A DNA stretch of 64,000 nucleotides from Actinostola sp. cb2023 (taxonomy: Eukaryota; Cnidaria; Anthozoa; Actiniaria; Actinostolidae). How positions within the stretch are numbered: position 1 is the stretch's first letter; every line of letters starts with the position of its first letter. The notes below the pieces were generated by a model that did no database searches, was not told the origin of the DNA, and saw only the letters and a list, made by a program, of their open reading frames with translations. Position numbers and translations under genes: made by a program. The stretch is from the NCBI GenBank assembly GCA_033675265.1, contig JAUJYZ010001058.1:717501-781500 (forward strand), given 5' to 3'. Below are positions 23,115 to 47,068 of the stretch, one piece after another.

Positions 23115-23170
<56 letters not shown>

Positions 23171-26100
23171 GGTAACAGCTGGAATTGATCTATGCATAAC
23201 CTATATACATGTGGGGGTATGCCACCATTACAGTCGACTGGTGAATACACATGCATGGCATTAATTCTGTAAAATAAAGCTGATGAAGTATCACTTCTAA
23301 ATTATGCACTGTACATTGCACATACTTAACTAACAATCATAAAGAAACTGCATCAGTCTTACTTTGATTTGGGGATTTCATGGAAGCTACATGTAACAGA
23401 TAATGGGGGGGGGGGGGGGGTGGTAACAGCTGGAATTGATCTATGCATAACCTATATACATGTACAGTATGCCACCATTACAGTCGACTGGTGAATACAC
23501 ATGCATGAACAGCATTAATTCTGTAAAATAAAGCTGATGAAGTATCACTTCTAAATTATGCACTGTACATTGCACATACTTAACTAACAATCATAAAGAA
23601 ACTGCATCAGTCTTACTTTGATTTGCATATATCTACAGAATGATTTCATGTCCAACAGAAGCTACATGTAACAGATAATGTTGAGGCTTGTCAAAGACCA
23701 AGTTCATGCAATTCAACTCGACTTGTGAATACTTTGCAGTCATCATAAAACTCTTGATCTCTAACTGTAGTTGATGTAGAAAAGTGTTCAAATTAAACCA
23801 CCTGAAAATCAATTGAAAAGAACTTACAATTCGGAAACTCTGACAATAACTTTTTCTTAAGATATTTAATGACTGAATTATGTCTTGTAATAACTAATAA
23901 GCTTATAACTAATATTTAATTTGATAAGTTTAAGTTGAATACTTTAGACTGCAGATTCAACAAATATCAAAAACATGACTACAAGTACTGCATACTTACA
24001 GGTAGAATAGAGTGAAATAGAACAATGAAAAGGATTAAAATACAATGCTTATAGTTTTAGCTTTCAAACTAAGCTATGATAAATAACACAGCAAATAAAA
24101 CTCTAGCTATTTAGCCTTTGTCATGTCTATAAACGAAAGTCTTCAGTCAGCTGCCATCTTGTCACGTTTGTCAACAACAATTTTACCGTGAAAAACAGCT
24201 TTATTCCATAAATTTCCTTCAGAAAAGGAGATATTAAGATTTTAGAACATTTTACAGCTTACTTTATAACAAAAAAAGAACGTTTTACTTACCAGAAAGG
24301 TGAATAAACGGTGTTTTTTGTCTTCTTTGAAGAAAAACAAGCGACTGCCTCGATTTTCCCGCTCTTTTACCGATAGTCACGTGACCTTATGTGGATAACT
24401 GCTGACCAACATTAGCATGTTCATAAAGGAATGGATTTTAATATGCTGACAGTCAAAAACATATACTAATTGTTTTCTGAATAGTTTAAGCAGAAAGTAT
24501 GAAGCTACAGTAATGGTAAAGTAAATACATGCATAATATATTTAAAAATCCAAAGAAATGTGAATGAAGTTAATTACTTGGGATGCCTGTGTAACCCATA
24601 CATTGCCCATATACCACCCATATTTTATCCTTATATTAATAATTGGGCCCATGTATGGCCCACATATCCCAGTATTAACTAAAATGTTAACCCATATATT
24701 GCCCTTATATTAATCATTGGGCCCATATTTGGCCCACATATCCTGAGTATTAACTAAAATGTTAACCCATATATTGCCCATACATACCCATGTTTTACCC
24801 TTATATTAATAATTGGGCCCATATATGGCCCACATATCCCAGTATTAACTAATATGTTAACCCATATATTGCCCATATATCAATAATTGGGCCCATGTAT
24901 AGCCCACATATCCTAAAATGTTATCCCATATATTGCCCACATATACCCATATATTACCCATATATCAATAATTGGGCCATATATGGCCCACATATCCCAG
25001 TATTAACTAAATATTATCCCATATATTGCCCACATATACCCATATATTACCCATATATCAATAAAATGGGCCCATATATGGCCCACATATCCCCTACTGA
25101 CTAAAATAGTATCCCATATATTGCCCACATATACCCATATATTACCCATATATCAATAAAATGGGCCCATATATGGCCCACATATCCCCTACTGACTAAA
25201 ATAGTATCCCATATATTGCCCACATATACCCATATATACCCATATATCAATAAAATGGGCCCATATATGGCCCACATATCCCCTACTGACTAAAATTGTA
25301 TCCCATATATTGCCCACATATACCCATATATCAATAAAATGGGTCCATATATGGCCCACATATCCCCTACTGACTAAAATTGTATCCCATATATTACCCA
25401 CATATACCCATATATTACCCATATATCAATAATTGGGCCATATATGGCCCATATATCCCAGTATTAACTAAATAGTATCCCATATATTGCCCACATATAC
25501 CCATATATTACCCATATATCAATAAAATGGGCCCATATATGGCCCACATATCCCCTACTGACTAAAATATTATCCCATATATTGCCCACATATACCCATA
25601 TATCAATAATTGGGCCCATATACTATGGCCCACATATCCCATATTAAACCCATATATTGTGGAAAAGGTAAAAGCTTGGGCCCATATATGGTCCACATAT
25701 CAATTCTAGCTCCCCATACTATTCCCATATATGGGCCTTATATGGCCCATATACATCCCATATTTAACCCATACTAAACGTTTGGTGTGGGGGAGCATGA
25801 TTGTGACAATGAATACATTTGATAATACATTTGATGATTATGGCAGCATAGATAATGATGATGATAGTGGTTGTTGTTATGGTGGTGGTGGGAACGATGA
25901 GCAATGATGGTGATGGAGCATGATTGTGATAATGAATACATTTGATAATATATTTGATGATTATGACAGCATAGATGATGATGATAGTGGTTGTTGTTAT
26001 GGTGGTGGTGGGGACGATGAGCAATGATGGTGATGGAGCATGATTGTGACAATGAATACATTTGATAATATATTTGATGATTATGGCAGCATAGATGATG

Positions 26101-29100
26101 ATGATGATGATAGTGGTTGTTGTTATGGTGGTGGTGGGGATGATGAGCAATGATGGTGATGGAGCATGATTGTGACAATGAATACATTTGATAATACATT
26201 TGATGATTATGGCAGCATAGATAATGATGATGATAGTGGTTGTTGTTATGGTGGTGGGGACGATGAGCAAAAATGATGACGATGATATCACACAGTCCTC
26301 ATGTCTTTATTTCAGACTTACTATGGGTTGCGCCAGAAATTCTACGCATGCCAGTCCGTCCGCCAAAGGGAACCCACAAAGGGGATGTATATAGTTTTGC
26401 AATAATATTACAAGAATTCCATACAAGAGAAGGACCATTCAGTGGGGATTATATGGAACCTAAATGTAAGAACTGTTAAACCTATCGTAACAGTGTTTCA
26501 GTTTGTATTAGTGTTATGCATTGCCAAAAACGATGACAAGTTGAAGGTCTCAATGCTTTGTTGTACTTTCTAAGGTTTTGCCTTGGTGACCACTTAACTT
26601 GTGGGACAAATATTTTGCGTCACTGCGCATACTTGGACCAAATAATGTAATGTCCAGTCACTAATACAAAGCAATCCTACAAGGGTTGTTCGGAGTGTCT
26701 TCTTTATAAATTCGATCATTGATACTGACAGTCCAGCTCGATGACTTTCAACATCTCTTTCATCTTTTTTGATGCGCATGCTTGTAAAAGCTCTATATGT
26801 CATCCATTGTTATGGTCTTTGTTGTAGCACTCGTAGAGAAAGTGAGAGGTATGGAGTTTCCTCCCTTCCGTCCTGTAGTCCCCAATCTCATCAGTGGAGC
26901 AGAAGAACTTCGTGATTTGATGAAGCAATGTTGGGAAGAAGAGCCGCTGGATCGGCCTGACTACAGCGAGATTAAGAAAACTATTAACAAGATTGTAATA
27001 AATAGTGGCATGTAAGTATATTAATTATGGGATTCCTGTGCTAAAAGTCCTGGGTCTTATTGCACGACAGAGACACTTTATCCCAGTATCATGATAGATA
27101 GATTGGGCAATGTTTTATCAAGTCAGAATAACTCGCGTAAATGTTTGTTTTCAGGAAGAGAAATATTTTCGATAACATGGTTCAAATGATGGAGAAATAT
27201 GCTGATAATTTAGAAGAATTAGTAGCTGAGAAAACTGTGCAACTCATGGACGAAAAAAGAAAAACAGACGCTCTATTAGAAAGTATATTACCAAGGTAAC
27301 CTAGTTACTCACTACAATTGAAAGTACCGTATTCACCGGCGTATAAGCCGCACTCGCAGATAAGCCGCACCCAGAGTTTGACAACGCAAATTTTGGAAAA
27401 AAAGTTTTTTTGAATAAAATTAATAGAAATCACACATTGAGTGGAATCTTGAGAAAGCTATATGCTTTGCGTTATCGGACGTAAACTCCCAGAGAATACT
27501 TGAAAGGCTTACCAATAATTTTAACTTTGTAATAGACTAATCATAAAGACACTTTTTCAATGGAACTCTTTACGACAAATCACGATCCAATGCAACCCTA
27601 TGACTGATTAAAAACGTCTTTCCCACCAACTGTCGGCATTATCAGTTCTAAAATCTAAGGTTCGTTAGCATGCACGTGAGAATGTTATGTTTGAGACACT
27701 TGATTGACACATGTTGTGTTAGCACGTGAACGAACCCGCTCATCAATGAAAATCACTTTAGCAAACCGTTAGGTCTTGTAGTAAAACCGTTGCACGATTG
27801 TTAAACTGTCTGAAAAGGTGTTAGAACCCATTAATTTATCTGTTTAACGTCTAACCAATTGCCAATGCTTTTAGGAGTAACTAACAGTAAATGTACGTAC
27901 TCTTTTATACTTTTATGTTAATTATATGTAAATTTCTGGTACCAATTCCCGATGCCGTCTCCAAGATAAGCCGCTTTTCGGGGAAAAAGTGCGGCTTATA
28001 CGCCGGTGAATACGGTAATTAAATGGCTGTTTTTCACTAGTGACGCAAGGTCAATCAAGTTTTTAGTGAGTCTATAAGTTCCAAGTTACTCTAGGTGCCA
28101 GACAGAGGTTATATTTTCTCTTGTTTCGGCACACGTCACATAGTAAGAAAGCTCTGGTATGCAGGAGCTCTTTAAAGTCATCTATTAACATCTCCTTCTG
28201 CTATAGACCTGTCGCTGAGCAGCTCAAAAAAGGCAAATCTGTGGAGGCTGAGAGTTTCCACGAGGTTACCATCTATTTTAGTGATATTGTTGGTTTTACA
28301 AGTCTAAGTGCAGCGAGTACTCCCATGCAGGTCAGTGCATACTTAACTCAAATAACACATATGAACCGACGATAAAGGTGCGCATTGTCAGAGGGTTGGT
28401 CCGCAATGCGTGGAGTAGGCTGTTTGCAGAGAGGTGGTCATGTGGGAGAGTTATGCATTGTTGCAAGCACACTACAGTTAACTATCGTTAGAATGAGGTT
28501 TATACCTCTGTATGCTATTAATTTTGTCCTCTTTGACGTTCACCATTAATATTCTACTGGTTTAACTGCTAGTCCCTGTCATTTATACTCTAGGTTGTCA
28601 CACTACTAAATGACCTATACACATTATTCGACGACATCATTCAAGAATATGATGTTTATAAGGTAATGTATACTGTGGTATCCATAGAAACTGTCAATCA
28701 GCTATATCATATATATATATATTTCCATTTTCTTTAATTTTAATAGTGTCCACAATTAGTAATAATGCTGAATATTTTGACACTTAAATAAAGTTCTTAC
28801 TTACTAGCTAGACTACGTATGACCAGTTCTTTGGTTCGATTTGTTGCAGGTAGAGACGATTGGTGATGCGTACATGGTGGTCAGTGGATTGCCTATTCGA
28901 AATGGAAGACGTCACGCCGCTGAAATTTGCAAGATGGCGTTACACCTGGTTGATGCTGTATCGAAAAACTTTGTTGTGCGACACAAACCAGATTACAGAT
29001 TACAGCTTCGAGTGGGAATCCATAGTGGTAAGCAAGTTTCCACCAGTTTAACCGCTAGTTCCTATCAGGCCCAGTAGTTACAGGTGTTGTAGGTAACACC

Positions 29101-32100
29101 ATGGTTACATCAATGTTATGTTGGTTGTTTTCAGGCCCAGTAGTTACAGGTGTTGTAGGTAACACCATGGTTACATCAATGTTATGTTGGTTGTTTTCAG
29201 GCCCAGTAGTTACAGGTGTTGTAGGTAACACCATGGTTACATCAATGTTATGTTGGTTGTTTTCAGGCCCAGTAGTTACAGGTGTTAGGTAACACCATGG
29301 TTACATCAATGTTATGTTGGTTGTTTTCAGGCCCAGTAGTCGCAGGTGTTGTAGGTAACACCATGGTTACATCAATGTTATGTTGGTTGTTTTCAGGCCC
29401 AGTAGTTACAGGTGTTGTAGGTAACACCATGGTTACATCAATGTTATGTTGGTTGTTTTCAGGCCCAGTAGTTACAGGTGTTGTAGGTAATACCATGGTT
29501 ACATCAATGTTATGTTGGTTGTTTTTTTCAGGCCCAGTAGTTACAGGTGTTGTAGGTAAACACCATGGTTTTACATCAATGTTATGTTTGGTTCTTTTCA
29601 GGCCCAGTAGTTACAGGTGTTGTAGGTAACACCATGGTTACATCAATGTTATGTTGGTTGTTTTCAGGCCCAGTAGTTACAGGTGTTGTTTTCAGGCCCA
29701 GTAGTTACAGGTGTTGTAGGTAACACCATGGTTACATCAATGTTATGTTGGTTGTTTTCAGGCCCAGTAGTTACAGGTGTTGTAGGTAACACCATGGTTA
29801 CATCAATGTTATGTTGGTTGTTTTCAGGCCCAGTAGTCGCAGGTGTTGTAGGTAACACCATGGTTACATCAATGTTATGTTGGTTGTTTTCAGGCCCAGT
29901 AGTCGCAGGTGTTGTAGGTAACACCATGGTTACATCAATGTTATGTTGGTTGTTTTCAGGCCCAGTAGTCGCAGGTGTTGTAGGTAACACCATGGTTACA
30001 TCAATGTTATGTTGGTTGTTTTCAGGCCCAGTAGTCGCAGGTGTTGTAGGTAATACCATGGCAAGATACTGTTTGTTTGGAGACACTGTTAATACATCGT
30101 CAAGAATGGAGGCTAATGGAGAACGTAAGATATTACCATGGTAACCACCATCATCACCATCATCAAGAAATAACGATGAACTTTTTTTATTTTGGTTTCA
30201 TTATACACATACAGTTTTGCGTCTATGTAACGAGTTTATAATCATCTTTTAACTGAAGAAAGTTGTTAATATTAATGTGCCATCATCATAACCACCAATG
30301 AACTTCTCTGCCACTTATCATCATCATCCACCGCATTATTATCATCATCATCATTGTCCAGCTGATGCCCATTATTATCATGATGCCCATCATTATCATC
30401 ATCTATCATTATCATGTCCATCATTATCATCATCTATCATTATCATTTCCATCATTATCATCATCTATCATTATCATGTCCATCATTATCATCATCTATC
30501 ATTATCATGTCCATCATTATCATCATTCATCAGCATCATCGTCGCCCCTTATTCTTGTAATAACAATTGACAGACCACGTTTCGTTCTGTTACAGCTTTA
30601 CGTATTCATATAAGCGAAGCAACAAAATTAATTTTAAATGAACTTGGTGGGTTTGTAGTGGAAAGTCGAGGACAAGTATATCTCAAGGTAACAACTTTGA
30701 TTGCTTCATTTGTTATATAATATTGTAATTTAATTATTATTAATTATTGTAATTTAATTATTGTATTTAAAAACAAGAATAGTTTACTAGTGTGTGGGTA
30801 AAATCGATCACATGCCAAACTGGATGATGGATGGATGGGTGAATGGATGGAGGATAGATGGATGGGTGGATAGATGGATGGGTGGATAGATGGGTGGATA
30901 GATGGATGGATGGATGGGTGGATAGATGGGTGGATAGATGGATGGATGGACGGATGGATAGATGGATGGGTGGATAGATGGATGGGTGGATAGATGGATG
31001 GATGGACGGATAGATGGATGGATGGGTGGATAGATGGACGGATGGACGGATAGATGGACCGATAGATGGGTGGATGGATGGATGGGTGGATAGATGGATG
31101 GATGGATAGATGGATGGACGGATGGATGGATAGATGGATGGATAGATGGATGGATGGATAGATGGACGGATGGACAGACGGATAGATGGATGGACGGATA
31201 GATGGACGGATAGATGGATGGATAGATGGATGGATGCTATATGGGTGGATGGATAGATGGATGGATGGGTGGATAAATGGATGGATGGGTGGATAGATGG
31301 ATGGATGGATGGATAGATGGATGGATGGGTGGATAGATGGATGGATAGATGGATGCTATATGGATGGATGGATAGATGAGTGGATAGATGGATTGATTTA
31401 GGATAGATGGATGGGTGGATAGATGGATGGATGGATGGATAGATGGATGGATGGGTGGATAGATGGATGGATAGATGGATGCTATATGGATGGATGGATA
31501 GATGAGTGGATAGATGGATTGATTTAGGATAGATGGATGGATGGATAGATGGATGGATGGATAGATGGGTGGATAGATGGATGGATGGATAGATGGGTGG
31601 ATGGATGGACGGACGGATAGATTGACAGATGGATGGAGGGTAGATGGATGGGTGGATAGATGGATGGGTTGATAGATGGATGGATGGACGGATAGATGGC
31701 CGGATGGATGGATGGGAGATAGATGGACGGATGGACGGATAGATGGACGGATAGATGGGTGGATGGATGGATGGGTGGATAAATGGATGGGTGGATAGAT
31801 GGATGGATGGACGGATGGATGGATAGATGGGTGGATGGATGGATAGATGGACGGATGGATAGATGGACGGATAGAGGGATGGACGGATAGATGGATGGAT
31901 AGATGGATGGATAGATGGATGGATGCTATATGGGTGGATGGATAGATGAGTGGATAGATGGATGGATGGGTGGATAGATGGATGGATGGGTGGATAGATG
32001 GATGGATGGGTGGATAGATAGATGGATGGGTGGATAGATGCTATATGGGCGGATGGATAGATGAGTGGATAGATGGATGGATGGATGGATGGATGGATAG

Positions 32101-32947
32101 ATGGACAGACGGATAGATGGATGGACGGATAGATGGACGGATAGATGGATGGATGCTATATGGGTGGATGGATAGATGAGTGGATAGATGGATGGATAGA
32201 TGGATGGATGGATGGATAGATGGATGGATGGATGGACAGACGGATAGATGGATGGATGGATGGATGGGTGGATAGATGGATGGACGGACGGATAGATGGA
32301 TGGACAGATGAAGACACTTTTGAGTTTTGGTTTAGACATCAGTAAGGATGCCTAGTGTAGCTATGCTGCTAAATCAGAAATGTCTAATGCAGTTCTTTCT
32401 CAATGCGCTTTACATAAAGCATAAAGCTGCAGGGATCATAGAAAAATAATACAGTGGAACCCGGTTAATACGGACACCATCGGGACGAGACGCAGTGTCC
32501 ATATTAACTGGGTGTCCGTATTAAACGGGTATATTTTATAGGCATTTGTATGAGTTTCAGCCGGGACAGAACAACATGTCCGTAATAACCGGGTGTCCGT
32601 ATTAACCGGGTGTCCGTAAGGCCGGGTTCCACTGTACTTAAAGCTCACGACTTGGACAATGTTGCTCATCAATTCAAAGAACATGCGTAAAACCTTTTTA
32701 TCTTCCTGTTGTACAGGGTAAAGGGAACGTCGAAACGTACTGGTTAGTGAGTGCAACGAATATAAACGAAAACAGACCACTGCCACGAGTACAAGCACTT
32801 AGTGAAACACCGCCGATTTTAAGCATTTTCGGCACACCATCCGGGTCTCCACTTTTGCAAAGGAACAGTAACCTGAAAGTATCCCTTCGTTCAAGAAATG
32901 GTCAACTTGCTATAAAAACAAACCCTAATCAAACAGCAATTATGTAA
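3863..32947 (+). CDS. Receptor-type (natriuretic peptide receptor-like) guanylyl cyclase, 23 exons
   Basis: Single-pass receptor that by family would convert GTP to cGMP when an extracellular ligand binds. Exons read from the sequence: 3863-4280, 10359-10689, 12031-12196, 13163-13319, 14019-14151, 14808-14888, 15251-15424, 18318-18396, 18539-18653, 19158-19241, 19633-19713, 20155-20259, 20432-20503, 20868-21027, 26316-26465, 26828-27011, 27155-27295, 28207-28330, 28594-28662, 28850-29027, 30026-30124, 30596-30687, 32717-32947. Every intron is GT-AG and every junction phase agrees; the coding sum is 3,424 bases, one more than a multiple of three because of a frame error in exon 1. The product is about 1,140 residues, normal for the family. 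The start could be M1 (3863) or M14 (3902, directly before the hydrophobic signal stretch). No upstream 5' UTR exon or promoter was recognised. If the exon 1 frame error is real, the allele is null. Confidence 0.93.
4792..4917. mobile_element. 108-bp palindromic MITE with 9-bp target duplication (Mutator-like)
   Basis: Element 4801-4908 has 41-base perfect inverted arms starting CATGCTCGAGAATCC. It is flanked by direct TGACTAGCC at 4792-4800 and 4909-4917. A 9-bp duplication is the hallmark of Mutator-like elements. It sits in the first cyclase intron. Confidence 0.85.
5101..6304. mobile_element. 1.2 kb TIR element with GC-rich ends
   Basis: Ends are perfect inverted repeats of about 55 bases starting TGCACCAGTCAATTGAAGTC and running through CCCCGCCCCCCGACCCCCGG. 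Subterminal GTTAAATTCCCCG copies recur near both ends. The middle is AT-rich without a transposase. Flanks read TTAA on the left and TAA on the right, so no clean target duplication is assigned. Confidence 0.85.
6873..7001. mobile_element. Palindromic MITE
   Basis: Arms begin GCCGTGTTTACACTTGA and continue through CTCTACCAAGGTACAAATCA, with a short loop (TTGGTGACCGC). Confidence 0.85.
7360..7440 (+). repeat. Retroposon-like 3' tail, copy 1
   Basis: GTGTCCCCAATTAGTTG ... TTGACACTGAAATAAAGT followed by an ATT run. The same tail occurs at 28747-28800 (GTGTCCACAATTAG ... TTGACACTTAAATAAAGT). Shared tails ending in a simple repeat are usual for SINE/LINE 3' ends. Confidence 0.55.
7951..8520 (+). 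mobile_element. Helitron/Helentron-like non-autonomous element B
   Basis: The left end is a hairpin, ACTCGGGCACTTCC paired with GGAAGCCCGAGT. The right end is GCCCGAGTAAACGCTCATTG then AGCGTCT|AGTT, in which ACGCTCATTGAGCGT forms a hairpin just before the terminus. No TIR in the usual sense, no target duplication. A 65-codon open frame inside (8167-8364) is unassigned. Confidence 0.55.
8913..9468 (+). repeat. 38/45-bp tandem array in cyclase intron 1
   Basis: About 14 copies of a unit containing GATTATTACAGCTATTAGCG, with a longer form that adds TTATTAA. Very low divergence. Confidence 0.95.
9869..10095. mobile_element. Harbinger-like MITE, copy 1
   Basis: Element 9872-10092 has ends GGGTGCGTTCGATTGACC and its inverse, flanked by TTA at 9869-9871 and 10093-10095. 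A three-base TWA duplication with G-rich ends is typical of PIF/Harbinger. It carries TATTCCAGAATAGGAATACA near both ends. Confidence 0.88.
10814..11021. mobile_element. Tc1/mariner (pogo)-like MITE
   Basis: Ends GTCGAACCTCT and AGAGGTTCGACTG, with TA on both sides. The interior is rich in ACAACGGCCAC repeats. Confidence 0.7.
11102..11915 (+). mobile_element. Helitron/Helentron-like non-autonomous element A
   Basis: Same ends as the element at 7951-8520: left hairpin ACTCGGGCCCTTCC with GGAAGCCCGAGT, right end CCCGAGTGAACGCTCATTGA then GCGTCTT. The interior shares ATCAAATGAACTCAAAGGC repeats and a CGCAACTGTCAGTCATTGTC segment with the composite at 1572-3088. Confidence 0.55.
12277..12725. 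mobile_element. TA-flanked MITE rich in TTTCGCG
   Basis: Element 12279-12723 has ends CCTTATTCG(CG/TA)CTTAATT, TA on both sides and many subterminal TTTCGCG copies, probably transposase-binding repeats. Confidence 0.8.
12827..13053. mobile_element. Harbinger-like MITE, copy 2 (inverted)
   Basis: Element 12830-13050 is the same family as 9872-10092 in opposite orientation, flanked by TAA. It lies between cyclase exons 3 and 4. Confidence 0.88.
13612..13925 (+). repeat. 47-bp tandem array
   Basis: Six to seven copies of a unit containing GGGCTCCCTGTGCCAAAGTG and GGCTCCTGTTCAGAATATCT, located between cyclase exons 4 and 5. Confidence 0.93.
14184..14560 (+). repeat. About 70-bp tandem array
   Basis: Five to six copies of a unit containing GGGAGCATGGGTAATATGAA and AAGTCACCACTGACTGAAAG, starting soon after the exon 5 donor. 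Confidence 0.93.
16290..16880 (+). repeat. About 117-bp tandem array
   Basis: Five copies of a unit containing TCTCACAAAATCACAGGCGA, GCGATTCTGTTGCAAGCACT and TTAATTAATCTATTAGTATC. A partial, altered copy follows at 16955-17010. Confidence 0.93.
17092..17408 (+). pseudogene. Possible gene remnant in a cyclase intron
   Basis: Starts ATGGCGGCAAAAGG with a 41-codon frame ([12 protein letters not shown]..., [17 protein letters not shown]) that stops. A second frame then gives protein-like [17 protein letters not shown] and [20 protein letters not shown]. Two frames in succession suggest a frameshifted retrocopy or transposon gene. Not recognised. Confidence 0.3.
17956..18282. mobile_element. G-run-ended MITE, copy 1, with 11-bp direct flanks
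   Basis: Ends CCCAGGGGGGGGGG-TACTCAG and inverse CTGAGTACCCCCCCT; interior carries repeated CCAAAAAAAGTCC. GTGGTAAAAGT flanks both sides. It ends 36 bases before the transmembrane exon of the cyclase. Confidence 0.82.
18318..18396 (+). CDS. Cyclase exon 8: transmembrane helix
   Basis: A short exon, 79 bases, encoding about 26 residues dominated by I, V, L and A ([17 protein letters not shown]) and ending in the usual basic stop-transfer R-H-Y-K supplied across the next junction. It starts after a TTTTCTAG acceptor with the G left by exon 7, and ends before GTGAGG in phase 2. It places the extracellular half upstream and the kinase-like and cyclase parts in the cytosol. Confidence 0.9.
18539..27011 (+). 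CDS. Cyclase exons 9-16: kinase-homology (pseudokinase) domain
   Basis: Residues about 512-829. The segment contains an [13 protein letters not shown] / [16 protein letters not shown] start, a hinge-like [12 protein letters not shown], the degenerate catalytic loop [12 protein letters not shown] (HGN replaces HRD, so the catalytic Asp is absent), TDYGL instead of DFG, WVAPEIL for the APE motif, [12 protein letters not shown] and [15 protein letters not shown]. This is the pattern of the ATP-binding but non-phosphorylating domain of receptor guanylyl cyclases. The intron between 21027 and 26316 holds a 4.5 kb satellite element. Confidence 0.92.
18815..19047 (+). repeat. About 58-bp C-rich tandem array
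   Basis: Four to five copies containing CCCCACCCCCATTGCC and TTTGTTTTGTATCTAGTGAG, between cyclase exons 9 and 10. Confidence 0.92.
20528..20600 (+). repeat. ATCC microsatellite
   Basis: Uninterrupted ATCC repeats about 25 bases after the exon 13 donor. Confidence 0.95.
21036..21236 (+). repeat. GATGATGATAG/GGTGGTGG minisatellite, left part
   Basis: Two copies of an approximately 120-bp unit containing GGTTGTTGTTATGGTGGTGG and GAGCAATGATGGTGATGG. It begins directly after the exon 14 donor (21028). It continues at 25794 beyond the satellite element. Confidence 0.9.
21240..22435. repeat. CCATATATTTCC satellite array
   Basis: About 1.2 kb of imperfect 10-20 base units built on CCCATATATT and CCCATACTATT. 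Strong composition bias gives long spurious open frames ([12 protein letters not shown]). Confidence 0.95.
22782..22977. mobile_element. MITE enclosing a tRNA-like pol III unit
   Basis: Perfect 34-base inverted ends (AAATATATGAATCCAAGTGG...). Between them are an A box TAGTGCAGTTGG at 22854-22865, a B box GGTTTGATTCC at 22898-22908 at the normal spacing, and a run of eight T at 22923-22930. This resembles a tRNA-derived SINE unit captured between inverted repeats. Confidence 0.75.
23022..23197. mobile_element. Poly-G-ended MITE, copy 1
   Basis: Ends ATGCATCAATCAATTCCAGC and inverse GCTGGAATTGATCTATGCAT; just inside each are C or G runs, the right one about 53 G. A truncated right half plus flank repeats at 23404-23640. 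Confidence 0.85.
24590..25790. repeat. About 110-bp tandem repeat of the satellite element
   Basis: Units contain CCCATATATTGCCCACATAT, a CAATAAAATGGGCCCATATA-like centre and CCCCTACTGACTAAAAT. At least nine copies of varying length occur, diverging toward the left. Confidence 0.9.
25794..26285 (+). repeat. GATGATGATAG/GGTGGTGG minisatellite, right part
   Basis: Four further copies of the unit at 21036-21236, ending 30 bases before the exon 15 acceptor. Confidence 0.9.
27155..27295 (+). CDS. Cyclase exon 17: dimerising signalling helix
   Basis: Encodes about 47 residues beginning M-K-R-N-I-F-D-N and containing [13 protein letters not shown] and [15 protein letters not shown]. This coiled-coil linker joins the kinase-like domain to the cyclase domain in all receptor guanylyl cyclases. 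The exon starts one base into a codon and ends in phase 2 (AG|gtaacc). The following intron contains a complete TA-flanked element at 27327-28015. Confidence 0.92.
27325..28017. mobile_element. TA-flanked TIR element in cyclase intron 17
   Basis: Element 27327-28015 has ends CCGTATTCACCGGCGTATAA and inverse, followed inside by repeated ATAAGCCGCAC. TA occurs on both sides. No transposase frame inside. The ends resemble a widespread metazoan family. Confidence 0.88.
28207..30687 (+). CDS. Cyclase exons 18-22: class III guanylyl cyclase catalytic domain
   Basis: Residues about 877-1064. Metal-binding aspartates lie in [11 protein letters not shown] and in the later [10 protein letters not shown]. 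The guanine-specifying Glu is in V-E-T-I-G-D-A-Y and the guanine-specifying Cys in [10 protein letters not shown]; the transition-state Asn and Arg lie in NTSSRME. All residues needed for GTP cyclisation are visible, so this copy looks catalytically competent as a guanylyl rather than adenylyl cyclase. Exon 20 ends (29027) at I-H-S-G and exon 21 (30026) resumes at [10 protein letters not shown]. The intron between them is almost wholly a minisatellite made from the exon 21 acceptor. Confidence 0.93.
28747..28806 (+). repeat. Retroposon-like 3' tail, copy 2
   Basis: Matches 7360-7410 over about 50 bases and ends AAAGTTCTTACTTACT. It lies in the intron before cyclase exon 20. Confidence 0.5.
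29069..30025 (+). repeat. 66-bp minisatellite made of the cyclase exon 21 acceptor junction
   Basis: About 15 head-to-tail copies. Each unit holds 30 bases of intron end (including TTGTTTTCAG) plus the first 36 bases of exon 21, so each copy carries a usable 3' splice site and codons for GPVV(T/A)GVVGNTM. The period is 66, a multiple of three, so long open frames run on both strands. Copies nearest the real exon carry the exon's GTCGCA version; most distal ones carry GTTACA. A few are shortened or have extra T. Confidence 0.95.
30300..30540 (+). repeat. ATCATCATT-type repeat
   Basis: Imperfect TATCATCATC and CCATCATTATCATC units in the intron between exons 21 and 22. Confidence 0.9.
30818..32310 (+). 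repeat. GGATGGATAGAT array, 1.5 kb
   Basis: Nearly pure four-base repeats (GGAT, AGAT, GGGT, GGAC variants) with a higher-order pattern that includes recurrent GCTATATGG interruptions. It fills most of the last cyclase intron. Open frames inside it ([12 protein letters not shown]) are artefacts of the repeat. Confidence 0.97.
32450..32636. mobile_element. Tc1/mariner (pogo)-like MITE
   Basis: Element 32452-32634 has ends CAGTGGAACCCGG and inverse with TA on both sides, and internal repeats of GGTGTCCGTATTAA. It lies 80 bases upstream of the last cyclase exon. Confidence 0.85.
32717..32947 (+). CDS. Cyclase exon 23: end of domain and C-terminal tail
   Basis: Begins after a CTGTTGTACAG acceptor with [12 protein letters not shown], the conserved end of the cyclase fold, then a roughly 65-residue tail rich in S, P, N and R without a domain I recognise. 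The stop TAA is at 32945-32947. About 60 bases downstream a 41-bp tandem array begins, so the 3' UTR may run into it. I did not see a convincing polyadenylation signal before the array. Confidence 0.9.
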   Translation, partial: GKGNVETYWLVSATNINENRPLPRVQALSETPPILSIFGTPSGSPLLQRNSNLKVSLRSRNGQLAIKTNPNQTAIM

Positions 32948-36439: not shown

Positions 36440-39400
36440 TTAGCCCAGACCAACATCTAAGGACATCATGATGATGAAACCAATTATTGTCGTCCAAGAA
36501 GCAAGTTTACCATTGCCACTGAAATATGAGTGTTAGAAAACAAGGTAAACATTGGAACCATGTAATAGACTTATTAAAATCCAAATTCTCCATTGGAAAT
36601 CAAGGAGCTACAAGGAGAATTTACATTTTGATCTGAGAACACTAGTGACATGTTCTTGCATGGACACCTTTAATTCATAGAATGAGGATGATTTTAGAGC
36701 TATAAGAACTCACAATCGCGACAGTGTGTATCTTAATTGAAGGGGTCTGTGCAATAACAACGTAAGCGATCTCTGATCATACTCTAAATTCTCCTTAAAT
36801 TTCTTTGAATCTAAAAGGAGAATTCAGATTTTGATCACAAGTCACTTACGTTGTTATTGCACAGACCCCTTCAATTGTAAACCCCTGACCAACCAAATTC
36901 ACTGCTGCAATAAGTTGCACCATCATCATTACTACTACTACCAACAGCATTGTCAACACTGATGTTATCATCAACAACTTACATACATTTACATACATCA
37001 TCATCATTCATTACATCTCATCATCAACTTCATCAACCAAATTCACTGTTGCAATAAGTTACACCATCATCATTACTACTACCAACAGCATTGTCAACAC
37101 TGATGCTATTATCAACAACTTACATGCATCATCATCATTCATTACATCTCATCATCAACTTCAACTTCATCAACCAAATTCACTGTTGCAATAAGTTACA
37201 CCATCATCATTACTACTACCAACAGCATTGCCAACACTGATGCTATTACCAACAACTTACATGCATCATCATCATTCATTACATCTCATCATCAACTTCA
37301 ACTTCATCAACCAAATTCACTGTTGCAATAAGTTACACCATCATCATTACTACTACCAACAGCATTGCCAACACTGATGCTATTATCAACAACTTACATG
37401 CATCATCATCATTCATCACATCTCATCACCATCACCAACAAATTGACATCTAGTTATTATGTGTCTCCTTTTTTTACAATAATAAAAAAATGCAGACTTT
37501 TCAACTTTTTCTAAGAGAAAATACGACATAGAAATCGTGTGTGTGCTTGTATGTGGCATTTATCTAGTGCCTATATCCTCTTATTGATGATAACAATTAA
37601 TCAATCAATCATGCAAGAAATCACAACTACATGTACTGGTCCCAGGGGGGGGTACTCAGGGTTATCAGTGACAGGGAGGTGCGAAGACCTTTTTTGGGTT
37701 TGAAATTCGCGGCTTGGGACTTTTTTTGGGTTATCAATTTTCTGGTGGACTTTTTTTGATATAAAGATTTTGGCAAGGACTTTTTGGGGGGTTGATAAAA
37801 ATGATATCCTACCATTCTCGATTTTATGAGTACCCCCCCTGGGTACCGGTACTGTATTTTAAAGATTTTTACCATGTCTGTGCTTCTGGTATGATATCAT
37901 CTACTACTACATAAACCATGGCACCAGCAGCAAATGATAATGCATATGGAAGGAGTGGCTCAGCAACCTGTCAAAATATTATAATGCTATAGGTGAGCAT
38001 AATGGAATGTAAACTATTGTTATGTAAAATACCATCCAGAAATGTACTGGCTAATTTGACAAAGCTGCGTGACAAAACCCAAGTTTGTAAAAATGGTTGA
38101 CAAATAATAATTATAACGTTTGTAAACATTACATGCCGACCTATAATCAACATGAACATGAAAGTCATCAATGGCCTGCTGGTAGGCTGGTATGTATGTA
38201 AAGATGATGATGATGATGATGATGATGACTTACCACTACAGCATAAGCACCAAGTAAACCTGCTATTGGTTCTACCATACCACTAAGCTGCCCATACCTG
38301 AAAGAACACAATCAACTGAAATATTGTATTGCTTCAAGTAAACTATCATTCAAAAGCACATCTGGCCCTGGTTGCATGAAAGGTGAATAGTGCTATCCAC
38401 CGGATAAGTCTTATCCAACGGATAAAATTTATTGGATAACTGCATCAATTTTATCCATTGGATAGGACTTACATGTATCCTGTGGATAGCGCTATTCACC
38501 TTTCGTGCAACCGGGGCCAGGGTGTTGCTCTTTTACTAGCTGAGTTCACTACTTTGAAACAGTTTTGAATGGGGGAGGAGAAGGAAAGGAAGAGGAGGGG
38601 GAGGAGAGGTAAGGGAGTAGAAAGTTGTTTATTGCACTAATAAAGCAGCCATTGAAAAATCAACAACAACAACATTCAACAATGAAAATAAACATTCTTT
38701 ACCAGAAACTTCTCCACAGAGAAACTCCAGATGCATGTAATGGAAGGCTTACAGCTAAGCCTTCTGGGAAATTCTGAATACCAATACCTATTGCAAGATT
38801 TCTGTTAACAGAATAGAATAAAATTAGACTACATGTAGCTACACACTTATGGCATTATTAAACTAAAGATTAGAATGCTTCATGCCTTTTCACACACAAT
38901 CATACTGTACCTTGCATTTTCAAAAGTGGCAGATTCACTTTTTCCAATTGCACCAAATGCAACCCCAACAGCGAGACCCTCTAAGAAATTATAAACACAA
39001 ATTTACAATCAGTATAAGTGTACATGTAAATACATAGACCAAGATACATGTACATGTATCTCACCGGCTCTATTAAACATCCACCTTTGAACAAGTGGCC
39101 ATAAAGCCAATTACCCAATGGATACCTCTTACTACAGGTTTGACTGACAGTAATGTGGATGTGATGTTATTATAATGTTAATTTGCCAACACGTTTTGTC
39201 TCCCTGCCAACAGATCTCATGTTGTCACTTTACATACACCGAATTCAATTAAGTTAGTCACCCTTGACTCACAAAGGTGCAACCCCAGAGAATCATGGGA
39301 GATACCATTGAAGTCTTTCTACCCAAATTCCTTGACAATTTGACAAAAAAATTGGCCACCTCATTTGGAATGTCACTTGAATTTGCTACCACAACGTTCT

Positions 39401-42400
39401 TGTTTTGTACAAGACGTTCATGAACAATATGGTTGCAAATAGAAACTCCCATGATCCTTCAGGGTCAGACCTTTCACCCTTTTCGGGGGACTAACATAAT
39501 AGTCCCTTTTCGCATTCACAGATCCCGCTGTACTTAATAATAATAATAATAATAATACACTTTATTTAAAGAGGGTGACATCAGACGCATTTGTACAGGC
39601 TTAGCCTCGAGTCAGTGTAAATTATTCACAAATATCAACAAGAACACGAAAAAATGTTGACATGAAACAATAGAAACATTTTTGAATTGCACGGACTGTT
39701 TTCTGAATCAAGGCTAACCCTGTACAAATGCGTCTTTTGTCAAGGACAGCGGTCATCTCTAAACAACGCAAAACTAGAGTATTGAAATAGGTGTCTGAAT
39801 ATAAGAGCCATGGCAAACAGTGTTGAAGAAACATTTGAGTCTCTCATATTTGCTTCCTCATTTTTTTGCACGTACAACATTTGTTTAAGAAAAACAATCA
39901 TTTCCACAACAAATGTTTTGTTGTTTCCTACTGCTCACCCAGAAACAAGTATTACAAGAAACAATGTTTGTGCAACATTGCTCAATTGCTTCCAGGGAAT
40001 TCTTTATGTCATACATACATGTACCTGTGGTATATTATGCACAGTAATGGCTACAATCAAAAGCATTCTTTACGTCATACATACCTGGTATATTATGCAC
40101 AGTAATGGCTACAATCAAAAGCATTCTTTATGTCATACATACCTGGTATATTATGCACAGTAATGGCTACAATCAAAAGCATTCTTTACGTCATACATAC
40201 CTGGTATATTATGCACAGTAATGGCTACAATCAAAAGCATTCTTTATGTCATACATACATGTACCTGTGGTATATTATGCACAGTAATGGCTACAATCAA
40301 AAGCATTCTTTACGTCATACATACCTGGTATATTATGCACAGTAATGGCTACAATCAAAAGCATTCTTTACGTCATACATACCTGGTATATTATGCACAG
40401 TAATGGCTACAATCAAAAGCATTCTTTATGTCATACATACATGTACCTGTGGTATATTATGCACAGTAATGGCTACAATCAAAAGCATTCTTTATGTCAT
40501 ACATACATGTACCTGTGGTATATTATGCACAGTAATGGCTACAATCAAAAGCATTCTTTACGTCATACATACCTGGTATATTATGCACAGTAATGGCTAC
40601 AATCAAAAGCATTCTTTACGTCATACATACCTGGTATATTATGCACAGTAATGGCTACAATCAAAAGCATTCTTTATGTCATACATACATGTACCTGTGG
40701 TATATTATGCACAGTAATGGCTACAATCAAAAGCATTCTTTACGTCATACATACCTGGTATATTATGCACAGTAATGGCTACAATCAAAAGCATTCTTTA
40801 TGTCATACATACCTGGTATATTATGCACAGTAATGGCTACAATCAAAAGCATTCTTTACGTCATACATACCTGGTATATTATGCACAGTAATGGCTACAA
40901 TCAAAAGCATTCTTTATGTCATACATACCTGGTATATTATGCACAGTAATGGCTACAATCAAAAGCATTCTTTATGTCATACATACATGTACCTGTGGTA
41001 TATTATGCACAGTAATGGCTACAATCAAAAGCATTCTTTATGTCATACATACATGTACCTGTGGTATATTATGCACAGTAATGGCTACAATCAAAAGCAT
41101 TCTTTATGTCATACATACATGTACCTGTGGTATATTATGCACAGTAATGGCTACAATCAAAAGCATTCTTTATGTCATACATACCTGGTATATTATGCAC
41201 AGTAATGGCTACAATCAAAAGCATTCTTTATGTCATACATACCTGGTATATTATGCACAGTAATGGCTACAATCAAAAGCATTCTTTATGTCATACATAC
41301 CTGGTATATTATGAAGAAATAGAAAACGAGGCAGCGTGCTCTATCGAGTTATATAATTAATTTATCGAAGCACGCAGGAATTGGAAGACGAGAGAAGTGC
41401 TAGGAGAAGCACGAGGCATAGTCGAGTGCATCTCGCACTTCTCAAGTCTTCTTTCAATTCCCAAGTGCTTCTATAACTCGATAGAGCACAGCTGCCGAGT
41501 TTTCTATTTCTTTTATAAAATAAGTAATGGCTACAATCAAAATCATTCTTTATGTCATACATACCTGGTATATTATGCACAGTAATGGCTACAATCAAAG
41601 GAGCATTCTTTACGTCATACATACATGTACCTGTGGTATATTATGCACAGTAATGGCTACAATCAAAAGCATTCTTTATGTCATACATACCTGGTATATT
41701 ATGCACAGTAATGGCTACAATCAAAGGAGCATTCTTTACGTCATACATACCTGGTATATTATGCACAGTAATGGCTACAATCAAAGGAGCATTCTTTACG
41801 TCATACATACCTGGTATATTATGCACAGTAATGGCTACAATCAAAAGCATTCTTTATGTCATACATACCTGGTATATTATGCACAGTAATGGCTACAATC
41901 AAAAGCATTATTCTTTTCCAACTGGCTAATTTATGTTCTTTGTTCATATCATTTGAAATTGCTTGTTCTTCTATATTCTCATTGAAATGTTTACTTGAGA
42001 TTGTTCTCTTAGTTGCACTGGATTTTGTTTCATTTCGTCTTGTATTATTAACAATAACAGTTTCTTGAGAGTTTTTTTTGAAGTCATTTTGTGTATATGA
42101 GTTTCGGCTGTCTGATGCTACGGCATCTGCAATGTTTGGACATTCTAAACCCTGCAATAAAGAAAACAAAACAGAAAGGTCAATGCTCTTCATTATGTCA
42201 CATTATGCTTTTTATTATTCAAGGTTTTTTTTCTTACTGTCTTATGCATGGATCAATTCCAGCTGTTACCATCCCTCCTCCCCCGGGCTGACCCCCGGGG
42301 ATTTTTTTTTCTTTTTCTTGGGACTACAAATTCCCTGCCCCTGGGCCGCCAGAAATAACAAATTCCCCGCCCCAGGGCAACGGAAAAGCAACCAACAATT

Positions 42401-42714
42401 GAATAATATTAAAGGCATGTTTAATAATAAAGCTAGACACCTTTTAGAAATAATTATTGACCATAACAGTAGAGATAAGAAGTCATCTGCCTTTTTTTAA
42501 TCAAAGAAAGCCTTTAACTTTGCAAGACCTTGTTTTTCAAGCCAATCGGCGACAAAAGTAGTCTCTTTACCGACAAATTCCATTATTATGAATTCCTCCA
42601 TTGATTATACGCTCGGTCAAGTTATCACCGCCCCCCACCCCCGAGACAACCACGTTGTTGTACAAAATCCCCGCCCCTGGGACACAGGTCCTTACAAATC
42701 CCTGGGGTATGCCC

Positions 42715-42746
<32 letters not shown>

Positions 42747-42825
42747 ACCCCCGAGACAACCACGTTGTTGTACAAAATCCCCGCCCCTGGGACACAGGTC
42801 CTTACAAATCCCTGGGGTATGCCCA

Positions 42826-42860
<35 letters not shown>

Positions 42861-45800
42861 TGGTAACAGCTGGAATTGATCCATGCATTATTCCAACAGT
42901 TGCTCGAGAGGGAGAGTGGGAGATGAAAAGGAGAGAGAAGAAAGTGAGGGAGAGGAGAGGAAAGAAGGTGAGGGAGAGTGGGAGATGAAAAGGAGAGACA
43001 CGCTGGGTCAGAGGCCACCCCTCAACGTATCATGTATTTCTGTCGCTTTTTACCGGCTCGGCTAAGTAATTAAGACTGGGGATGAGTAACTTGTAGACCG
43101 GAAGTCTAGAGAAAGAATAATGCAGGACTGTGACGGGTGGTAAGAGTTAAAATTTCGACATGGTTTGAAATATGGCGGCAAATATTGGAGAGAGGTAAGC
43201 ATTGGCTTTATTTCGGTGTTTTCGGTTTTAAAATCGGACTAATATTTAGCGAGATATGACCTCTAGTAAATTTGGTTTGATCTTGAGTTCGTAGCGGTGA
43301 ATGACGGATTTTTCTCCGAGTTTAGAATATTTTTCTTTGCTTCTTTGACAAAATAATCAAAAATCTAAAACGATACGATTCGAGATTGATTCCTCTGCTT
43401 CAAGAATATTGTCGAATTATCTCTCTGTCTTGGGAACTGTATTTTTTAGACCAAGCGTTTTAGATACAACTGTCACACATTCACGTAAACGGAAAAGATT
43501 CCCGATCGGCGAATACGCACGACAGAAGAAGATAGCAAAAGAACAGCTTGTTGAAGACAAAGTGAAGACTCAACAAAACATCAAGCTTCTACGTTCTAAA
43601 TTGAATTACAGAAAAGAAAAGGTAATCTTAGTTGAGATAAATTATACAATTTATATTAGATTTATATATAGATTTCAAAGCATATACAAAGCAGGAAATC
43701 AGTAAATAGTGTATCTAAATTATCATTATGTTAGGATATTCTTGATAGAATGCATATATATAATTTTTGAGATATAAATGATAGGTTTATTTTATAGTGA
43801 TCGAGCATTGAAACAAAACTATATTTGTATTTAATGTTGCTTTAATACTAAAATAAATAAATAAAAATAATATTTTTTTTATTTGATATTTATATTGTCT
43901 TGAGACCATACTGGTAAAGAAAGTAAGTTGTTTTGCTGGAATTTCATGTACATAATATCTACAATAATTATTCTTTGACTCGATGAGAAAACAAAGATCA
44001 AGTTATACTCCCTTGTATTTCATGGTCTGATCTTACTCTTAGAAACAGTGTGTCTTTGTTTAGCAGGGTAGAAGTATCAGGCCAAGACATCAAAATGCTA
44101 AAAGAAAATTGTTCTTTGTATTTTAATAATTGTGCTATTTTTGATACTAAAGCTAGCCAGACTGCATGGACTATTACTGCAGAAGTAAAATATGTTTGTG
44201 TGATCAATGTTAGTATGGCTATGTCATCCTTTGAAATATATTTTATAATAAAAAAATGTATTGGTTTGGCACAGCTTTAGAATACCCACCTTAGTCAATA
44301 GATCACAGAATTACTGAACTTCAAAATGTATAAACACATTTATCACACCAGAAGTAAACTCAGTCGTTCTACCTGATCAGGCGGGTATTCTAGCTGATAT
44401 TGAATATACAATGTTAATTAACAATAACAATTAGCCATTTAGACTGAATAGAAACATTGATATAACTTAGTAGCATTGTTTAATTAGTTAATTTTAATAT
44501 CAGTGTTTCACAAAGGGCAGTTTATTCCAACAATATGAACATATTTATTTATCTAAGAATAATATTGACTGCTATGTAAAGAGTCAAAAGGAAATATGTG
44601 TACATAATTTACATGATTGTAAACCCTAATTTTAGTATTTTATTATATAGAGTGATGGCACTAGTAATAACCCGTGAAATAAAATCTAATAGTTAGTGAC
44701 TAATAGTCAGATCAAAACAAAAGAAAACAATGGAATTAGTGTCTAGTAATATCTACTTGGCTAATATCTGTTTCACGGGTTAAGTGCCATCACTCTAATC
44801 ACAAATCACATGTATATAGTCTGAACTGAGTATAATGTAATTTATTATATAATCACAAATCACATGTATATAGTCTGAACTGAGTATAATATAATTTATT
44901 ATATAATCACAAATCACATGTATATAGTCTGAACTGAGTATAATATAATTTATTTATATAATCACAATATTTACATGTATATAGTCTGAACCGAACTTAT
45001 AATATATAAATTGCTTATATCCTGTATATGAAATGTGAAATATAATAAAGTAAACTACATACCTGAGCTTGTATTACATATCTTAGTGCTGGGCAATCCC
45101 AAAAGCATTCCAGAAACCATAATTAAATGAAACAGTAAAAACCTCACTATTTTTATTGTATTTGAATAATAATAATAATAATAATTTCTTAAAGACGCAT
45201 TAACCGAAGTCTCAATGCTTTTTACAATGTAAACAAAAAACACAACCTTGGCATAACTGGTATCTTCAATTGCTTTCATTAACACTGAGTTCATTCCGTG
45301 GTACACGAACGTGCTCATCATTCATTCGATTGAATATGTAGCTCAATTTCCTGTCATCTATAACTAGAACACGAATGACTGCCGTAGTTTCTGTAGTTGT
45401 GTGACCAAACGAATTATGAGAAATAACTTGATTTAAAATCAAATTGAAAACCTCAAAGGGAACTTCCCGGGTCAATGTGCAGAACCATGGTGTAGTTGAA
45501 GTTGGCGTTGAACGGAGTCTTCGAAGGATAGCTTCATGAACTCGAAACAGCGTACGTACAGCCATAGGCCACATATCCATGAAAACATGACTATTTAAAT
45601 GACGAACAGAACCATATTGATCGCACACATTTCTAACTAAACCATCTATTCCATTGAAGATCTTTCTCACGGCATCTCGCTGTTGATCATCGCTGTCTAT
45701 CTTCCCTAAAATATCCAGTCTGCACAGAAATAAGCTCCTTCGAATAATCCCTTCTACTCCAACTTCAGCCGCCATATTGGATTTTGGAAAAGTTCCCATA

Positions 45801-47068
45801 ATTCTCTGCGCGCTTCCGATGATCACAGGAGAGGGCAGGGGGTATCTGACCCAGCGTGAGAGAGGAAAGTGAGGGAGAGGAGAGGAAAGAAGGTGAGGGA
45901 GAGTGGGAGATGAAAAGGAGAGTGGGAGATGAAATGGAGAGCAAAGGGAGGGAGGAAGAGTGGGAGAGGAGGGAGGGAAAGTGGGAGAAGAAAGGGAGAG
46001 TGAGTAGGAGGGGAAATAACATTAATAATAATAATAATAATAATAAGGTATTACCTATAGGAACATCCCATGGAGCCTTCATTTTCTTACAGAAGGGGAA
46101 TGAGAGGGGGAAATGAGAGAGGGGGAAATGAGAGAGGAATAAAATTTGGGGATGAGAATAGAGAGGGAGTGGATCGAGGTAGAGGTCAGACAGAGAAAAG
46201 GAACAATTAAAAGAGAGCTTGAATACCTAACCTTGAAGCAAAAATCATTTACTAAGAGTACAATTATATGTTAAACACTGTTATATACCATATATGGAAG
46301 TAGCCAATCTGCTGCAAATACAAATGCTGCACCCAAAGCAAAACCAATAGAAACAGGGATGAATGCAAGTCTGCCATCCTTGCCATAAAAAGGTGATTTT
46401 TCTGCCAACTCAATTGCAGGATTAAGAAGTGACCAATACGATGCTGCAAGCATAACCTATGTAGAAATAAAATATGGCAAATAATTAGTAAAACATCCAA
46501 AGCACAAATACAAGTGGCTACAAGTACATGTAGTCTATTGTGTTGATAATGGGATACATGTTGGTTTCTGGGAAATTATCACTGCATGCAGCCCTGATCT
46601 ATCTATCAAAAACCTCAAATATAACTCCCTTTCTCAACCTGGCTTCTTTTATTTTACAAATAATGGTTACTAAGTCTCCCTCCTTAAATAAAGTTATTGT
46701 ATTGTATTGTATTAATGATATTCTTACATCTTGTATCAACACAATTGTCTGTACATGTACACGTCGACTTCATTTTCATTTTCAAAAGTTTTTAAGTCAG
46801 AATTATTCTATTTCTTACCCCTGCAGCAAAACCTAAACTTCCATCGAGGACCTTACGCTGGAAAGTAACAAAATACGATAAGGATAATAGTTTATAAACA
46901 TTAATAAGGTTAGAAGCACAACCAATGCCCATTGCCAATGGTTAATACACATCTCAATACCTGGCCACTGTTGAATAAAAACACTAATGCCGAGCCGGCC
47001 GCTGTAACAGCCCAGGTGAATAGGGTCCCTAGTAGAGCCTGTGTCACTGGGCTATAGTTTGGAAGCAT
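36440..47068 (-). CDS. SLC39A11: ZIP11-type zinc transporter (SLC39A11-like), 10 exons
   Basis: Multi-pass ZIP-family carrier moving zinc into the cytosol; ZIP11 relatives are reported in Golgi and other internal membranes. Exons, in transcript order on the minus strand: 47068-46961, 46857-46819, 46456-46289, 46085-46055, 42144-41869, 38980-38911, 38801-38703, 38297-38234, 37967-37873, 36518-36440. They sum to 1,029 bases: 342 residues plus TAA, close to the length of the human protein. Landmarks in order: [128 protein letters not shown]. The two metal-binding motifs HNIPEG and NFPEG are intact. Exon 4 (31 bases) is the least certain but its phases fit both sides. Confidence 0.93.
36735..36875. 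mobile_element. Palindromic MITE
   Basis: Arms AATTGAAGGGGTCTGTGCAA and inverse, continuing with TAACAACGTAAG. It lies in the last ZIP11 intron. Confidence 0.85.
36890..37440 (+). repeat. About 130-bp CATCATCATT-rich tandem array
   Basis: Four copies of a unit containing CCAAATTCACTGTTGCAATA and CTACCAACAGCATTG, in the last ZIP11 intron. Confidence 0.92.
37640..37850. mobile_element. G-run-ended MITE, copy 2
   Basis: Same family as 17967-18271 in opposite internal orientation (GGACTTTTTTTGG repeats), with ends CCCAGGGGGGGGTACTCAGG and GAGTACCCCCCCTGG. The flanks GTACTGGT and GTACCGGT are an imperfect duplication. It ends about 20 bases before ZIP11 exon 9. Confidence 0.8.
38362..38520. mobile_element. 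Palindromic MITE
   Basis: Ends CTGGCCCTGGTTGCATGAAA and inverse, with internal GGATAAGTCTTATCC-type repeats. It lies just upstream (in transcript terms) of ZIP11 exon 8. Confidence 0.85.
40000..41910 (-). repeat. 58/66-bp minisatellite made of the ZIP11 exon 5 donor junction
   Basis: About 27 copies, interrupted at 41313-41520 by a palindromic insertion. On the minus strand each unit contains 40 bases of exon end (codons for [13 protein letters not shown]), the donor CCAG|gtatgt and 18 intron bases; a second form inserts eight bases (gtacatgt) after CCACAG, also with a plausible donor. Only the copy at about 41869-41909 is joined to the rest of exon 5. The array makes up much of the intron between exons 5 and 6. 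Confidence 0.95.
41313..41520. mobile_element. Palindromic MITE inside the ZIP11 minisatellite
   Basis: Inverted arms of about 40 bases beginning AGAAATAGAAAAC and ending GCTCTATCGAGTTATA, separated by a partly palindromic centre. It interrupts one minisatellite unit, so it arrived after the array had expanded. No clean target duplication was read. Confidence 0.7.
41869..42144 (-). CDS. SLC39A11: ZIP11 exon 5: variable cytosolic loop and HNIP metal site
   Basis: 276 bases. The first part is a polar loop rich in N, S, K and T (about 70 residues), as expected for the poorly conserved loop between helices 3 and 4. It then reads [18 protein letters not shown] and stops at CCAG|gtatgt in phase 1, and exon 6 completes the Glu of HNIPEG. 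The acceptor used is the second AG after TTGCAG, because only it keeps frame with exon 4. The donor and the last 40 coding bases are the source unit of the large minisatellite lying immediately downstream in the intron. Confidence 0.85.
42244..42888. mobile_element. Poly-G-ended MITE, copy 2
   Basis: Same ends as the element at 23022 (ATGCATGGATCAATTCCAGC). The right part holds two copies of an 80-base GC-rich segment, each followed by about 30 G. It lies between ZIP11 exons 4 and 5. Confidence 0.85.
43172..43621 (+). CDS. Left gene of the TIR element: basic coiled-coil N-terminal fragment
   Basis: Exon 43172-43194 (MAANIGE) joins exon 43450-43621 across GTAAGC...TTTTTTAG with matching phase, and the second exon ends at GAAAAG|gtaatc in phase 0. 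The product starts with a basic KRKRF cluster that could be a nuclear localisation signal, then a lysine- and glutamine-rich helix (about 45 residues). I could not find the next exon with certainty. An open stretch at 43987-44210 looks coding but its phase does not fit cleanly. Function unknown. Confidence 0.4.
44648..44797. mobile_element. Palindromic MITE nested in the 2.86 kb element
   Basis: Ends TAGAGTGATGGCACT and inverse, followed by AACCCGTGAAA arms. Confidence 0.8.
44800..44970 (+). repeat. 54-bp AT-rich tandem repeat
   Basis: Three to four copies containing AATCACAAATCACATGTATA and GTCTGAACTGAGTATAAT. Confidence 0.9.
45266..45775 (-). CDS. Right gene of the TIR element: 169-residue unknown protein
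   Basis: Open frame starting [14 protein letters not shown], with natural composition, predicted mostly helical, containing [16 protein letters not shown] and [18 protein letters not shown]. An upstream in-frame Met at 45826 exists, but 45775 matches the ATATGGCGGC context used by the gene at the other end. The stop is at 45266. No domain recognised; it may continue by splicing before the stop. It points toward the left gene. Confidence 0.45.
   Translation of the reverse strand: MAAEVGVEGIIRRSLFLCRLDILGKIDSDDQQRDAVRKIFNGIDGLVRNVCDQYGSVRHLNSHVFMDMWPMAVRTLFRVHEAILRRLRSTPTSTTPWFCTLTREVPFEVFNLILNQVISHNSFGHTTTETTAVIRVLVIDDRKLSYIFNRMNDEHVRVPRNELSVNESN

Follow-up and report, generated by a model that had tools for sequence, protein, structure and literature searches.

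The stretch of DNA analysed here, a 64,000-nucleotide window from Actinostola sp. cb2023, which is a hydrothermal-vent sea anemone (Cnidaria) according to its genome report (PMC10803348), carries on its minus strand a ZIP11 (SLC39A11) gene in which the boundary between an exon and the following intron is repeated in tandem. The gene was identified by a Pfam Zip match of 111 bits, by its HN[IV]PEG motif and by 78% identity to Exaiptasia ZIP11; animal ZIP11 proteins came closest, and the region could be aligned with the bacterial ZIP 5tsa. The gene and the repeated junction are those named in the original prediction, which numbered the exon 5; in our model it is coding exon 4 of nine. The features of the gene are as follows.

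36440..47068, minus strand: ZIP11 coding region, nine exons, 334 amino acids
41869..42151, minus strand: ZIP11 coding exon 4, ending with HNIP and the first base of the E codon; unique in the assembly search
38911..38980, minus strand: ZIP11 coding exon 5, starting with the rest of the E codon, then G (EGLAVG)
41909 down to 40002, minus strand: donor array of 28 head-to-tail copies, copies 2-28 lying within intron 4
41909-41852, minus strand: array copy 1, covering the 41 nt at the end of coding exon 4; the genuine donor lies between 41869 and 41868
41314..41522, minus strand: MITE-like element of 209 bp that has terminal inverted repeats and lies in copy 7

Each array copy consists of up to 41 nt from the end of coding exon 4 and a splice donor, the GT of which is present in 28/28. 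That a splice-donor array would be found here on the minus strand had been predicted correctly, with a count of about 27 that we revise to 28 tandem copies. Both of the unit lengths predicted are present, 58 bp (15 copies, each with 41 exonic and 17 intronic nt) and 66 bp (nine, the last copy included), together with a third that had been missed, 60 bp (three copies); one further copy, running from 41547 to 41284, is interrupted by the 209-bp insert. Likewise, the consensus that had been ascribed to every unit, CCAG/gtatgt (the slash marks the splice junction), holds for 19 of the 28 copies and fails for the nine of 66 bp, which read CACAG/gtacat. The HNIPEG motif does span the junction, as CCA G/AG GGT, and translation past donor 1 reaches a stop within one unit, both as predicted. 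The result is a series of short tandem units laid across an exon-intron boundary, with the genuine boundary intact at one end. It is more than a chance arrangement, as judged from TRF scores near 2000, from the identity of the units and from a search of the assembly with a 159-bp array query, in which the 11 matches found among the best candidates scored all lay within the ZIP11 array.

The units are very similar to one another, with a mean identity of 0.98 (gaps ignored) over 27 of the 28, the split copy being excluded. Their few differences fall in exonic and intronic parts alike, and the largest is an 8-bp indel located at the donor in nine of the 28 copies, so that the donor itself appears to enjoy no special conservation. 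The units are further arranged, at a higher order, as 58+58+66 bp (TRF period 182), which points to duplication of several units at a time; this pattern and the unit identity are those of minisatellite-type turnover. The heptamer AAAGAAT is common to the exon, the intron and the joints between units, which suggests slippage between short repeats. Across the assembly the 209-bp element was scored 40 times, this copy included, and the other 39 are 87-91% identical over the full length; it is therefore a MITE-like transposon that was inserted into the array. No second haplotype was found for a comparison of copy number in this assembly, which is heterozygosity-reduced and holds exon 4 once.

The neighbouring gene, on the plus strand, encodes a receptor guanylate cyclase, for which we found 23 exons and 60% identity to its Actinia tenebrosa counterpart (P0121). 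It contains the converse arrangement, which had also been foreseen: an array of 16 acceptors running from 29069 to 30026.

29069..30025, plus strand: upstream of cyclase exon 21, 15 additional copies of its acceptor
30026..30124, plus strand: cyclase exon 21, whose genuine acceptor is the 16th and last copy

When the upstream acceptors were read into exon 21, five of the 15 left an open, longer frame. Moreover, 13 of the 15 upstream copies can be read as an in-frame micro-exon of 24 nt (GPVVTGVV), the same length as one that can be read in the ZIP11 units. Between the last two cyclase exons the window also contains a degenerate TGGA tetranucleotide array of 1.5 kb (30821-32304).

Structures of this type have been described in amphioxus as ‘mirages’, that is, tandemly duplicated exon-intron boundaries on both sides of introns (PMC3087553), in the genes for Adh3, the globins BflGb6 and BflGb9, PGBD5 and troponin C (PMC3087553, PMC3902484). 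In the accessible parts of these reports, copy number differs between haplotypes and RT-PCR suggests that splicing is undisturbed (PMC3087553), while PGBD5 has the same structure and includes a doubtful predicted exon within the repeats (PMC3902484). As described there, the mirages share with the anemone arrays the tandem boundary copies with AG or GT signals, on the donor or the acceptor side, the single genuine end, and the doubtful predicted exons inside the repeats. The anemone arrays differ from them in their cnidarian host, in their 28 and 16 copies (compared with up to 7 in the amphioxus cases described there) and in being known from genomic sequence alone. An intron minisatellite described in abalone does not, in the text available, lie at a boundary (PMC6905558). 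In the literature searched, whose coverage leaves out most subscription journals, mirage-type boundary arrays were found for amphioxus only, with no cnidarian report.

We then determined how frequently boundaries are duplicated, counting as a near copy any sequence on the same strand within 3 kb that matched at 24 of 30 bases, whether in tandem or not. Across ZIP11 and the cyclase, near copies were found for 2/60 boundaries, 2/152 exon-interior positions and 163/735 intron positions, the last counted outside the two arrays; the contrast between boundaries and introns is significant (Fisher p about 1e-4) in what is a small sample of boundaries, mostly from one window, with both genes located in this single minisatellite-rich stretch. 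The cyclase boundaries were set by script near the ends of tblastn matches and may in some cases be misplaced by a few bases. A low-complexity filter took 43 intron positions out of the count, whereas the boundaries were left unfiltered; with the arrays included, the intron counts were 130/413 and 46/154 unfiltered and 226/805 filtered. Minisatellites of at least 20 bp account for 17.8% of the window. In a 200-kb sample their share is 10.5% and uneven, with a strong regional difference: about 19% in ten stretches of the contig that holds the window (G000:C520:500001-690000, L015-L024) and about 2% in ten stretches from two other contigs. In two further places, 23117-23625 and 42635-42859, the window contains homopolymer runs of G or C (29-53 bases) together with near-identical tandem copies of 110 or 254 bp.

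Turning to other loci, we found one of 16 match ends duplicated across eight ZIP-family loci. In this case (L007:1430 and 1496; 1430-1517, G000:C1285) the exon acceptor of a second ZIP-family gene, ttttag/GCCATGTACCT, is present in two copies 66 bp apart, and upstream, at about 1182-1240, part of the unit occurs once more in an older and diverged form; by its sequence the pair reads as a decayed two-copy mirage. Three 10-kb myosin stretches, which contain 15 of the 79 listed matches, gave 0/30 match ends spanned by an array; for five of the 30 the flanking intron is repetitive within 50 nt and the end itself is uncrossed. Both sets of ends are those of HMM matches, not all of which are true boundaries. 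A splice-consensus scan of 50 array rows from the window and the sample, carried out without annotation, revealed no clear exon edging L032, L015, L017 or the array at 13609 of the window; besides these and the two known arrays, the rows that it flagged are at 14185, 24913, 62910 and 63332 of the window. Taken together, these counts suggest that a few per cent of boundaries carry such arrays and that, relative to introns, boundaries are depleted of them. Chance expansion combined with purifying selection would yield this pattern; selection in favour of splice-site arrays would not.

Against this background we considered whether the copies might serve in splicing. In a comparison based on a small matrix in which the genuine array sites were themselves included, the array donors scored 9.8 and 8.4 bits, within the 5.7-12.0 of 28 genuine donors, and the AGs internal to the units scored 7.2 and 7.6, within the 4.0-16.5 of 26 genuine acceptors. 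Since all 28 donors fall in the genuine range, their sequence is compatible with the use of copies 2-28, and we found no feature that would be expected to disable them. The copies might then act as a switch: the donors would compete, their balance would fix how much ZIP11 is made full length and how much truncated, and the number of copies would adjust that proportion. Such a switch would draw on the plausible scores of all 28 donors and on the clean early stop reached by read-through. When the donors were joined to exon 5, donor 1 yielded the intact 334-aa protein, and it is both the donor giving the shortest exon and the only one whose direct junction produces plain ZIP11. A direct junction of exon 5 with any of donors 2-28 gave one and the same product, terminated after 215 residues (27/27), because the stop precedes donor 2. 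As this truncation is shared by every downstream donor, additional copies offer no additional choice, and there can be no copy-by-copy tuning. In addition, the donor is altered in nine of the 28 copies, boundary arrays are depleted relative to introns, and in amphioxus the RT-PCR results, so far as they are reported in the accessible text, suggest no interference (PMC3087553). We therefore consider a donor-choice switch improbable. In human segmental duplications, internal tandem repeats at exon-intron boundaries have been described to activate cryptic sites and to generate new introns, with transcript support (PMC2812944). To judge from the part of that report available, the human repeats and ZIP11 have in common a minisatellite expansion at a boundary, whereas the human effects are backed by transcripts and the ZIP11 array is read from the genome; since such repeats can make new introns, we keep non-neutral readings of the array open.

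More improbable still is the idea that the units are spliced as 24-nt exons, so as to add blocks of AITVHNIP to ZIP11 and of GPVVTGVV to the cyclase. This 8-residue reading is open and in frame in 17 of the 27 ZIP11 copies, as is its equivalent in most of the cyclase copies, and the internal AG (7.2) and GT (6.0) that it would employ score on the low side of the genuine ranges, yet within them. Against it, 10 of the 27 ZIP11 copies break the frame, and micro-exons taken from adjacent units would leave introns of only 34 nt between them, which is very short for animals. The insertion would also fall in the conserved metal-site helix, and HN[IV]PEG is uninterrupted in 120/120 homologues among the matches listed (the best 120 of 7996, of which only P0002 comes from the same species). 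P0002 (GenBank QZH41_011631) is the public, predicted ZIP11 model of Actinostola sp. cb2023; it does contain array-derived residues, lacks exon 3 and ends before the last exon. Its 20 extra residues at the array were reproduced when donor 1 was joined to the AG in copy 2 and donor 3 was used next. Because the model was apparently predicted without RNA and exon 3 is missing from it, we did not count it as evidence of splicing; the available account of the public gene models cites homology and de novo prediction and mentions no RNA (PMC10803348). The join between donor 1 and the CCAG in copy 2 recalls the Rogers model of intron gain by tandem genomic duplication, in which AG/GT is repeated, as outlined in the accessible part of PMC3087553. 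Unlike in that model, the ZIP11 intron pre-existed and holds the copies inside it, and the new intron belongs to the predicted model P0002 alone.

Two further origins can be dealt with briefly. Introner elements are sequences present in many copies that carry splice signals, whereas matches to the ZIP11 unit were found in one tandem array only; with all 11 matches of the 159-bp query in that array (best candidates only scored), a dispersed or introner origin was rejected. Assemblies of corrected PacBio reads made with tools such as DBG2OLC, Racon, Pilon and Redundans can mis-size repeats. These are the reads and tools that the available genome description lists, and the copy number might thus have been created or inflated during assembly, which we regard as the least probable reading of all, given that the array of 1.9 kb is short compared with the 20-kb insert library (PMC10803348), that its variant units are ordered, that a MITE lies inside it and that similar arrays are present on other contigs.

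It is therefore very probable that the ZIP11 array is a ‘mirage’ minisatellite, produced by a recent tandem expansion over the boundary of exon 4 and intron 4, and that it is tolerated and not used. The expansion probably began with slippage between the AAAGAAT in the exon and the AAAGAAT in the intron, and the array would then have grown into the intron in multi-unit steps, while the genuine junction stayed intact on the side of the exon. Donor 1 is most likely the one that the spliceosome uses, the 27 other copies being removed together with intron 4. As sequence comparisons gave no indication of donor choice being in use or under selection, we infer that the array is neutral; most likely it arose as a side effect of the short tandem repeats with which this genome is crowded, and is tolerated.

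As far as the literature was searched, what is new is the occurrence of such a case in a cnidarian, the number of its copies and a base rate for arrays of this kind. For annotation the case carries a warning, as the public ZIP11 model was spliced within the array and lost exon 3. A far bolder view, to which we give very little credence, is that splice-site minisatellites are genome-wide and fast-mutating in Actinostola, with some read as in-frame 8-residue micro-exons; if this were true, splice-site copy number would be inherited, would vary with array length and would supply both protein variants and new introns. The ZIP11 array also offers a natural test of how the spliceosome chooses one donor among 28 that are near-identical and mostly spaced 58-66 nt apart, and it is a place in which to seek intron gain by tandem duplication. 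More generally, our data suggest that mirages are perhaps not specific to amphioxus, and that they may be expected wherever introns are rich in minisatellites.
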